Source: Astropecten irregularis
Lineage: Eukaryota > Echinodermata > Asteroidea > Paxillosida > Astropectinidae
NCBI GenBank assembly: GCA_963971285.1
Contig: OZ020247.1
Span: 8,142,614 to 8,206,613, forward strand
Reading direction: 5' to 3'
DNA: 64,000 nt
The position numbers and the translations under genes were made by a program. The notes beneath the pieces are model-generated. The model worked only from the letters and a program-made list of their open reading frames with translations. It made no database searches and was not told the DNA's origin. Of the stretch, positions 57,401-63,400 are shown one piece after another. Every line of letters starts with the position of its first letter. Positions within the stretch are counted from its first letter, which is position 1.

Positions 57401-60400
57401 ACAGACAGGATGTCCTGGGTCAAACAAAACAAAATGATCAAATAAACATAGAAATAAACTGCAAGATCGTTGCGAGTTCTGATTATTTTATACAGATCAA
57501 ACTTTTTACTCTTACTCTGAGTCTGAGAATGTGCGAATTGAACTTATAAGAATGATCTAAAGAAGATATTACCAACATCGGAAAGTGTGGGTATATATCT
57601 GGATAACAAAAGAGATTAGTACCTACAACAGAAAAAAGGAATGCGACTGGCGTAGCAGTGGAACCGTCCTTATTGACGGAGCAGGTGACAGTATGAAGCC
57701 ACTCTGTGAAGTCCGAACTCCAAGCATTTCCACAATTTAAGAAGATTTTACCATTTCAATAATGGTAATCTGAAGCATAAAACTAATGTAAAATCACTTC
57801 ATACCTGATACAAGGAATGAGAAATCTGACGTAGCTGGGCAACCATTCTTGGTGACTGTACACGTGACAGTGTGAGAATCTGCTGTCAAGATTCCTCCTG
57901 TCAAAGATATTGCTCCGTCTATCGAGTCCGTGCATGTAACTGTCTCACCATCAGCGTTTATAGCAGTGACCTCATCCCACGTGACAGAAGTTGTTGTTTG
58001 TCCAACCGCGATACACTGACCACCAACAGAGGGCGATGCAATAATTGGTGCAGCTGCGTGTAGAATAACACGTTTGAGGTGCACTTTAGAATTCGGGGGA
58101 TTCACAAAAGTGCGCCACCAAGAGTTTGCAACGCATTGGCCAATCACAATGCGCGGAAATAATTTTGTAGACAAACTGCGCATGCGGAGAGTTGAGCACT
58201 TTGTCGAGAAAATGTATTTCTTGAATTGTGATTGGCCAACGCGTTGAAAACTCATGGTGGCGCACTATTTTGAATCGCCGGACTTTTTCTGCAAATGGAG
58301 AAAAAATTCTGCCCTCAGTGAATAATCGAATTGAACAATGCAGGACCGAAATTGTAGTACAGGGCTGTACAGTGTGAGTTTACAATTGGACATTCAATGT
58401 TAACTTTAATAGCAAGATCACGATTTCCAAATCTGAGTTTATTTTGCCATTTCGATAAGGTTGTATCCCGTCTGCTGCATGGAAATTTAAAACATCACTT
58501 ACCCGATACAAGGAGTGAGAAATCTGACGTAGCTGAGCAACCATTCTTGGTGACTGTACACGTGACAGTGTGAGAACCTACTGTCAAGATTCCTCCTGTC
58601 AAAGATACTGATCCGTCTATCGAGTCGGTGCAAGTAATGGTTTCACCATCAGCGTTTACAGCAGTGACCTCATCCCACGTGACAGAAGTTGTTGTTTGTC
58701 CAGCCGCGATACACTGACCGCCAACAGAGGGCGTTGTAAAAGATGGCGTTGCTTAAGCAACAAAAATGGTAAGGACACTGTTAGTCTTCGGTGTTCCAAC
58801 AAATCATTATACTCTTCAAATAAAATATGTCCTTAAATGAATTACCTTCAGGTTAATCAAAACCCAGATAATACTGTTGAATCTGACTGTGTCAGACAGG
58901 CGGAGAGGGCGCTCTCCAAAGTGCTTGGACTGTGTTTCTTGCCTATTGGTGGCGCTGTTTGTTTAAAAAAAACCACGCATAATTGCTGTATACACGGGTT
59001 TACACCATGGCAGCCATCTTAGATTTTCATCGCAACTTCAAAACGAGGCACTTCCACGCATGCGCACTTTCCGAAGTGTAAGCCCGTCCATTGTCGAAGA
59101 CAATACACGGGTTTACACTTCGGCGGTTTTGATCGCGACTTCGAAACGAGGCACTACCACGCATGCGCTTTTTTAGAAGTGTAAACCCGTGTATTGACCA
59201 GTTTCAAGTTTGTTCCAGGAATTTCGCAGATTATATCCAATATGATCCCATTCCATAATCATTGACTGGGTGAGTTTAATAGGCATTATTAAAGACGATT
59301 ACGTAATGATCCTTTCGAGATATGGATACGTGACCAGGGTTAGATTCTAAACCTAGAATTATTGGTTTATTTCAAGGTTCTTTTATGGAATTAATTTCAG
59401 CAATGTGGGTAACCTAGATGTGCATGTTGGTTTTGCTATTCACACACCCTATTACCATTGCCTGTAATAATATGGACGGTTTATTTGGTTTGTCAAAACG
59501 ATTCTCAAACCATTGTTAACCATTGGGCTGGTCTCAGTTCTCAGACGAATTAGTCGTTCTGGTGGGGACTGCTTCAAAGTTCGACTTTGTAGCTATAAGC
59601 TTTAACACCATCGCTTTGCTACTAGTCTGGCAAAAAAGCTTCCTGATCGCCTCCACACCGAATTTCTGCAAAGAATGTGGCAGAAAGACCGAGGGCACCA
59701 GTACACCATCAAGCATCTGTCGGAGTGGCTTGAGAAGAAAACCGGTCCCGCTGGACTGATCCTGCTGGAGAAGTCAAGCCGAGGGAAAACCGGGAAGAAC
59801 TTGCCACCTTGGAAGGACAAGGATTGTGACCGGACCTACCATCAGCGAAAGTCTTCGAGGGAACAACCTACACCAACCCGAAGCTACCTTGCGGGTACTC
59901 AGCCGAACAAAAGAGATTAGTACCTACTACAGAAAAAAGGAATGTCACTGGCGTAGCAGTGGAACCGTCCTTATTGACGGAGCAGGTGACAGTATGAAGC
60001 CACTCTGTGAAGTCCGAACTCCAAGCATTATTTTCCACAATTTAAGTAGATTTTACCATTTCGATAATGGTAATCTGAAGCATAAAACTAATGTAAAATC
60101 ACTTAATACCTGATACAAGGAATGAGAAATCTGACGTAGCTGGGCAACCATTCTTGGTGACTGTACACGTGACAGTGTGAGAACCTGCTGTCAAGACTCC
60201 TCCTGTCAAAGATATTGCTCCGTCTATTGAGTCCGTGCATGTAACTGTCTCACCATCAGCGTTTATAGCAGTGACCTCATCCCACGTGACAGAAGTTGTT
60301 GTTTGTCCAACCGCGATACACTGACCACCAACAGAGGGCGTTGTAATAATTGGTGCAGCTGCGTGTAGAATAACATGTTCGAGGTGCACTTTAGAATTCG

Positions 60401-63400
60401 GGGGATTCACAAAAGTGCGCCACCAAGAGTTTGCAAAGCATTGGCCAATCACAATGCGCGGAAATAATTTTGTCGACAAACTGCGCATGCGGAAAGATGA
60501 GCACTTTGTCGAGAAAATGTATTTCCGTGAATTGTGATTGGCCAACGCAATACAAACTCCTGGTGGCGCACTATTGTGAATCGCCAGACTTTTTCTGCAA
60601 ATGGAGAAAAAATTCTGTCCTCAGTGAATAATCGAATTGAACAATGCAGGACCGAAATGGTAGTACAGTGTGAGTTTACAATTGGACATTCAATGTCAAC
60701 TTTAATAGCAAGATCACGATTTCCAAATCTGAGTTTATTTTGCCATTTCGATAAGGTTGTATCCCGTCTGCTGCAGGGAAATTTAAAACATCACTTACCT
60801 GATACAAGAAATGAGAAATCTGACGTAGCTGAGCAACCATTCTTGGTGACTGTACACGTGACAGTGTGAGAACCTACTCTAAAGATTCCTCCTGTCAAAG
60901 ATACTGCTCCGTCTATCGAGTCGGTGCAAGTAATGGTCTCACCATCAGAGTTTGTAGCGGTGACTTTAGCCCACGTGACAGAAATTGTTGTTTGCCCAGC
61001 CGCGATACACTGACCACCAACAGAGGGCGTTGTAAAAGATGGCGTTGCTTTAGCAAAAGAAAAATGGTAAGGACACTGTTAGTCTTCGGTGTTCCAACAA
61101 ATCATTATACTCTTCAAATAAAATATGTCCTTAAATGAATTACCTTCGGGGTAATCAAAACACAGAAATACTGTTGAATCTGACAGTTTCAGACAGGCGG
61201 AGAGGGCGCTCTCCAAAGTGCTTGGTCTAGACTTGCTAAAAGACCCGTGCACAGTTCTCTGCTCTAGTGTTGGGACGAAGTCAACGGTGGACTACGAGCG
61301 TGACGTCCTCATCAAAGTCGTCCCCCTTAGCGTGCATGGCCCAGATGGGATGCTTGAGACTTACGGCGTACTTGATCAATGTGTGCGGAGCGCACAATAA
61401 TTCTACAGAGGGCAATAGACCAACTTCAGATTCCAGGCCAAGAATAATCCCTCCGAGTCATAACTGTGTCGGGGGAAGCAGTCTGGAAAGGAAGATGCGT
61501 CATTTTCGAAGTTTCACCGAGAGATGATCCGAGCCACAGATACAACATTGAATGAGCATTCTCTGCAGATGACGTCCAGTTGGCTACCAGTGTGTCAGCG
61601 GAAAGGCTGCACTAGAGAAATCGGGCCGCACCTGAGAGGCCTTTCTCTCTTCTCTGCAACCAACGCCCAGCCAGTGGTTCTAATAGTGGCTGACCACATT
61701 GAACTGACGCTATCCAGTGAAGCTCGAACCGGCCCCCAAACTAGGTCCTGTTCACAACATGCCAGCAGCCAGAACACCAAATAATTATACCACTTGATGC
61801 AGAGATTCATGGCAGTAGACAAGCCTCCACACGTCAACGAAAGGGAGGCGACCCGCTCCCGACAAGACCGACAGGCCATCAAGACACTTGAGGAGAAAAC
61901 CCCTGTCCAAGTAGAAGAGATCCAGCGCTACGAGACCCCCCTGCTATGGAGGTCAGGCAGTAAGATCCCTTTCAGTTGCCCTAAAGCTGTGTAGGCATTG
62001 GCACGCTCTCATCAATGAAGAGTTCAACTTGAGCCGAAACTTGCTGAGTACTGCAGGGGGTACATGTCGAAGCTTAAGAATGATGGACATGTCCGAGAAT
62101 TGGGTCCTGTAGAGCGGCTTACAGTTGATGAGCTACGAGGATCACGTAGCTCATCGTGTATTAACGTGTATTAATTAGGGTATATTCTTTAATTATCTTG
62201 TTTCAGTATAAGGACATGTACATGTACTTGTAGTATTACTATATCAGCCAGAAGTGAGAAAATTAAACCGACGTTTACCGCTAACCAGTGACAGTGTCCA
62301 ATTCTTACAGTCCCAAACATATACTGAAAAACAGGCGTAGTGGTCTTTGAAATTTTGATTCTGCCATCCAGATTGCGATAACAAAAATGGCCTCCAGTTT
62401 CAGAAATCATTACATAATTACCTGTTAGAAGGAAGGAGAAATGTCCACTTGCCGTGCAAAAGCCCTTAGTGACAGAGCAGTTCACGGTATGGAAGCCTTC
62501 TGTATAGTTCCCTCCTGTTAAAGTTACCGCGTTTCCATCCATCGAATCGGCGCAGGTAACTGTCTCACCAACAGCGTTTGTAGCGGTGACCTCATCCCAC
62601 GTGACAGAAGTCGATGTTTGTCCAGCCAGGATACACTGGTTACCGACAGAGGGCGTTACTATGAATGATGTTGCTAATTGGTGGAGAAAAGAAATGATTA
62701 ATACAAAATGCCACAAAGACGCATTGTTCGCTGTGTGGCCTATACACGACATTGAAAAGTACTAGATTCTATACATGTTACACTCGCACGTGGTTTTGTA
62801 AGCTTTTAAATTAAAAGTACGCCTATACCTTCTTCACAGGTAGCTCCTGTGCATCCAGAGGCACACATGCACGTGTACGTGCCAAGCCCGTTCTCACACG
62901 TTCCCCCATTCGCACAGGGGTCGAAGGCGCATTCGTCAATATCTGTATGAAAAACCAATTGACAGTTACTCTCCATTTATATTGATTGGGGAGTCAGGGG
63001 CCGATTTCACTAACGCTTTTCGATCACCGTAAATCCCAAATTCATCGCTAAACGGAAAATTGCTATATGCAAAGTAGAGATCGATTTTCCGTTTAGCGAT
63101 GGATTTGGGCTTTACGATGGTCGCAAACCGTTAGTGAAATCGGCCCCTGGTTGGCGTAGCGGTTCTTTCCTCGCCTTTCACCTCTGTATACCGGGTTTAA
63201 GTCCGGCTCGGTTCACAAGTGGATTGGGTTTTTAGTCCCTGCCTGATTCCGTGGGTTTTACCCAGAATATTACTCTGGGGTTTTTCCCCCACCTCTAAAA
63301 CTGTATCTTCTTCTCATCATCTTTCCATAACAGGTTTCATCAGGCTTGCGAGCTACAGTGCCTTGGTCACTTTTGAGGAATCCTTGGTGTCATCACCAGA

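Follow-up and report, generated by a model that had tools for sequence, protein, structure and literature searches.

Probable local copying of a host HYR exon block, at the DNA level, into a resident BEL/Pao element of Astropecten irregularis

Gap-filling duplications inside transposons have been described as single-copy Pack-TIRs, in which the source lies within 15 kb in 56.9% of the cases (most of those under 5 kb), the microhomology has a median of 2 bp and the gap a median of 4.6% of the element (Tan et al. 2021, PMC8277862). The same account presents template switching as a means of gap filling for DNA transposons in animals (PMC8277862). The second system of interest is that of the BEL/Pao retrotransposons; as far as their outline in PMC3118150 goes, the elements of the present study resemble them by their TG...CA LTRs and 5-bp target repeats (in 4/4 tested relatives) and by the presence of DUF1759 and a reverse transcriptase in one relative (L037), whereas the copy studied here differs from them in being a fossil with large losses.

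The window, i.e. the whole stretch of 64,000 nucleotides that was analysed, corresponds to C10:8142614-8206613 in a genome of 475.7 Mb and 168 contigs. In it, we consider that a host exon block was copied locally, at the DNA level, into a resident, dead BEL element, a reading to which we give a probability of about 0.9. Set against the description of the single-copy Pack-TIRs in PMC8277862, the locus is alike in its single copy with a nearby cis source (here 2.3 kb), in an element that was resident first, and in its internal breakpoints and small gap (here about 4%); it may also be alike in a short microhomology (here 3 bp at the left junction and up to 5 bp at the right one, which is blurred). 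It is unlike them, as they are described there, in that the element is an LTR retrotransposon and not a TIR DNA transposon, and in that the start of this element's own LTR forms part of the filler. The features of the locus, numbered by position in the window, are:

57605-58874, minus strand: copy A (source), host part, a piece of a minus-strand gene that holds introns, two HYR exons and a further, partial one
57805-58053, minus strand: HYR exon A2, 249 bp, without a stop, AG/GT at the splice sites; matches Pfam HYR weakly (14.7 bits)
58503-58751, minus strand: HYR exon A1, 249 bp, AG/GT splice sites, no stop; Pfam HYR 23.6 bits
58870-58874, no strand: left target-site repeat AATAC
58875-59519, plus strand: BEL 5' LTR remnant, starting with TG; approximate on its right side, where no match goes beyond 59504
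58990-59196, no strand: MITE-like insert in the 5' LTR, with inverted ends ATACACGGGTTTACAC; approximate bounds
59522-59905, plus strand: BEL gag-region fragment, 92-93% to 5 relatives
59906-61171, minus strand: block B, host part, copy of 57605-58874 in the orientation of the source gene
60110-60358, minus strand: HYR exon B2, 249 bp, AG/GT kept, no stop; Pfam HYR 19.3 bits
60799-61047, minus strand: HYR exon B1, 249 bp, AG/GT kept, no stop; Pfam HYR 23.1 bits
61172-61225, plus strand: end of block B (54 bp), which repeats the BEL LTR start 58875-58928 with the host flank still attached
61226-62142, plus strand: BEL fragment that, going by the order in the relatives, lies between gag and the reverse transcriptase core
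62167-62319, plus strand: tail of the BEL 3' LTR, ending with CA
62320-62324, no strand: right target-site repeat TATAC
62422-62673, minus strand: adjoining upstream HYR exon of the host gene; weak Pfam HYR match (14.9 bits)

With the Pfam HYR cut-off at 21.7 bits, A1 and B1 score above it, and A2, B2 and the exon at 62422-62673 below it.

The duplication of 57605-58928 as 59906-61225, introns included, which had been proposed in the first-pass annotation, is borne out by a match over the full length of the block at 95% identity. Counted over 57622-58928, copies A and B differ by 53 substitutions in 1,296 aligned sites (4.1%), a value that gene conversion between the two could have lowered, making the copy look younger than it really is. 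Block B lies about 2.3 kb downstream of copy A, in direct orientation. The same annotation had taken the entire source for host DNA; this holds for 57605-58874, but 58875-58928 is the start of the BEL LTR. The junction between host and LTR thus lies within the copied block, with the same host flank in A and in B, and the LTR homology runs on beyond 58928 in A but stops there in B. Since the homology continues in A and ends in B, A is the source and B the derived copy, and since B carries the host/LTR junction and the end of the LTR homology, the BEL insertion came first and the copy second. In both A and B, a partial HYR exon without its first half is present (57614-57735 and 59915-60037, approximate positions), in which, by eye, the donor site is kept and the acceptor is not clear.

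Both edges of block B lie inside the BEL element, and the two flanks are each truncated where they meet the block. The left flank (59523-59905) was found at 5 other places in the genome at 92-93%, and the right flank (61226-62170) in the same five elements, as pieces of 88-95%, besides two more distant places on C10 (71-85%) and short tandem pieces. In the five relatives the two flanks occur in the same order and on the same strand. The flank anchors 59905 and 61240 are 316 bp apart in all five, a distance that amounts to about 4% of the 7,462-bp relative on C11, and the loss in the window element is near 308 bp as judged from the BLAST edges against relative L035. No HYR block was found in any of the five, either between the flanks or elsewhere in the stretches fetched. 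These data support the earlier view that the left neighbour is the gag side and the right neighbour the pol side of one plus-strand BEL/Pao fossil, and an origin of the two flanks in different BEL families, which would have made the link a chance one, is at odds with the five relatives that share both. The BEL identity of the window flanks is drawn from the relatives, since pieces of L037 match DUF1759 (E 3.1e-9), which we take to be a BEL/Pao-linked domain, and RVT_1 (E 5.3e-11); in the four short window pieces tested, no Pfam match to a BEL/Pao or reverse-transcriptase family was obtained.

A false duplication of a divergent haplotype in the assembly was considered as well. A divergence of 4.1% could be heterozygosity, which in marine invertebrates may reach such a value, but both ends of the copy fall within an element 2.3 kb away that lacks about 300 bp at exactly this place, and such an artefact is very improbable.

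The first-pass annotation had placed the BEL element at 59523-62140; the assignment to BEL stands and the extent does not, as the element spans 58875-62319, from LTR start to LTR end, with large internal losses, among them about 90 bp lost near 61745 in the fragment 61226-62142. Its LTR ends, TG at 58875 and CA at 62318-62319, align to those of the relatives. Its two LTR remnants cover different, non-overlapping parts of the LTR, so that mutual comparison and LTR-LTR dating are impossible. Elsewhere in the genome, the 13 LTRs aligned start with TGTTGAAT, and the four tested pairs end with CAGTCCCAACA and have exact 5-bp target repeats (4/4; the fifth relative, C1:15.15M, was left out of this comparison). 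The target repeats of the window element, AATAC and TATAC, are alike at 4/5 bases. The first ~90 bp of the 5' LTR remnant and its part from 59209-59220 onward match all 13 other LTRs, from which the insert at 58990-59196 is absent (13/13). This insert, with 16-nt inverted ends and two 70-nt direct repeats within, has the look of a MITE, or of two copies with one nested in the other. The LTR parts are assigned to the element only by order and target repeat, and both remnants are read as one element on the basis of their order, strand and LTR ends and of the target repeat with 4/5 bases alike. The start of the 5' LTR is indeed more similar to the LTR of the C10 type (86%) than to that of the C11 type (79%), its nearest matches being LTR variants on C10/C28, and the coding flanks are closest to C11-type copies, as could be expected if the two flanks were separate BEL insertions that border the block by chance. 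The coding flanks nevertheless match the same five copies in order, with the constant anchor distance of 316 bp, and separate insertions therefore appear extremely unlikely; for the coding flanks, two unrelated BEL families are rejected on these grounds. Among the BEL relatives, C1:14047399-14059391 measures 11,993 bp from LTR to LTR compared with 7,438 and 7,462 in two others, and its right-flank match is split by ~4.5 kb, so that something is nested within it.

The number of block copies in the genome bears on how the block arrived. A search with the whole block scored the best 40 of 2,410 candidates, an excess due to a common palindromic repeat held in the block intron, and the searches were therefore repeated with block parts free of it. 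The left end of the block retrieved B and A only (2/2 candidates scored), and a second repeat-free part retrieved B, A and three HYR exons of the same window only (5/5 scored). With the right end, taken from copy A, the matches were A, B and otherwise LTR starts (18/18 scored), four of which extend 2-16 bases into the flank. These repeat-free searches brought out no third copy of the block in the genome: the two copies found lie 2.3 kb apart, and the block was seen neither at a further locus nor, between the flanks, in any of the five BEL relatives. The palindromic repeat itself, of ~190 bp, lies in the intron of both blocks (58090-58285 and 60395-60591) and occurs at dozens of places genome-wide at least, on both strands.

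The RNA of a normal element starts inside the LTR and is thus devoid of a host flank joined to the LTR start. Since block B contains precisely this host/LTR junction, the activity of the element itself is disfavoured. A capture of host DNA by reverse transcription, with a template switch to a read-through antisense host RNA, would require an RNA starting upstream of the LTR, even though the antisense orientation would preserve the host introns and template switching of LTR elements in duplications is stated in the discussion of PMC8277862. A recombinant of this kind would also be expected at another locus, yet the 5' junction that B reproduces is that of the element in which B itself resides; the genome searches gave no further copy, and 0/5 relatives have the block between the flanks. 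RNA-mediated capture was rejected on account of the host/LTR junction in the block, the single locus and the lack of any relative with the block, and we regard it as highly improbable. Of the two alternatives put forward in the first-pass annotation, an insertion of the block into a resident BEL element is thus retained, and an uptake of host DNA by the element through its own life cycle is not. The proposed retroelement-linked spread of HYR exons finds no support either, as only two copies were found, both at the source locus, and 0/5 relatives carry the block between the flanks.

In the DNA-level copying that we favour, an intron of the minus-strand HYR-bearing gene first received a BEL/Pao element in plus-strand orientation. 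For the repair of a later break or stalled fork inside the element, DNA lying 2.3 kb upstream would then have served as the template; the ~1.32 kb copied comprise exons and introns of the host together with the initial 54 bp of the LTR, and this repair copy would have replaced ~300 bp of the BEL element. At the left junction 3 bp are common to the source (AAC) and at the right junction up to 5 bp (CTTGG), the exact point being blurred by later changes. In a random-join control, at least 3 bp were shared in 5.3% and at least 5 bp in 0.5% of the joins, which makes the left-junction microhomology borderline with respect to chance. Gap filling with template switching is, by a modest preference, the pathway that we would retain for this repair. 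A plausible though less probable pathway is a tandem duplication of 57605-59905 (host, LTR and gag) and then a deletion within the second copy, reaching from its LTR start to a point beyond gag; it would be a sub-case of the local, DNA-level explanation, with a different pathway and an equal sequence outcome. It accounts for the direct orientation, for the LTR start that ends B and for both junctions, and is in line with the regular arrays that HYR matches form in the genome, but it needs two independent events, the second within a fresh duplicate.

These arrays, found elsewhere in the genome, have a constant spacing and lie on one strand; at C19:17948726-17964089, 12 HYR matches follow each other in steps of 1,369-1,380 bp (among the matches listed, 150 of 808 candidates). 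Judging from this spacing, local tandem duplication at the DNA level looks to be the usual route of HYR growth in this genome, and as tandem duplication looks common here, a new route is not called for. The arrays, such as that of C19, resemble the locus of the window in their repeated HYR units; they are arranged head to tail, whereas block B sits inside an element and not head to tail. A new retroelement-driven route for HYR domain growth is not supported by our data.

The copied exons B1 and B2 keep their frame and splice sites, and the block lies in an intron in the gene's own orientation, which might provide two extra HYR domains. Over the two 249-bp exons, A and B differ by 13 non-synonymous and 6 synonymous codon differences, one further differing codon past the exon end being left out, and from these counts alone the copied exons would appear to bear no sign of selective constraint; no function is claimed for them. 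The locus is a clean case in which the order of events can be read and in which an LTR retrotransposon received a repair copy made at the DNA level; complete exons, their splice sites intact, thereby came to lie in an intron of the gene they stem from. Such copying could add protein domains without retrotransposition. It is conceivable, though we hold it to be unlikely, that repair copies with exons land time and again in dead intronic transposons, that this route, besides tandem duplication, supplies HYR genes with in-frame domains, and that splicing brings the two new exons of this locus into the protein. Among the literature matches listed, no title or abstract opening concerned HYR exons copied into BEL elements, which does not prove their absence in print.

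Other observations concern the exons and their surroundings. The differences between exons B1 and A1 are clustered in codons 21-36, and several B1-specific bases match, by eye, the upstream exon at 62422-62673; this cluster may possibly stem from gene conversion. The mitochondrial cox1 start reads FSTNHKDIGTLY, the usual cox1 start, only under code 9, that of echinoderms and flatworms (codes 5, 9 and 13 being compared; under code 2 the frame fell short of the start), which makes an echinoderm probable as the source. An inverted repeat at 62995-63149 has 66-nt arms that are 91% complementary and 23 nt apart.
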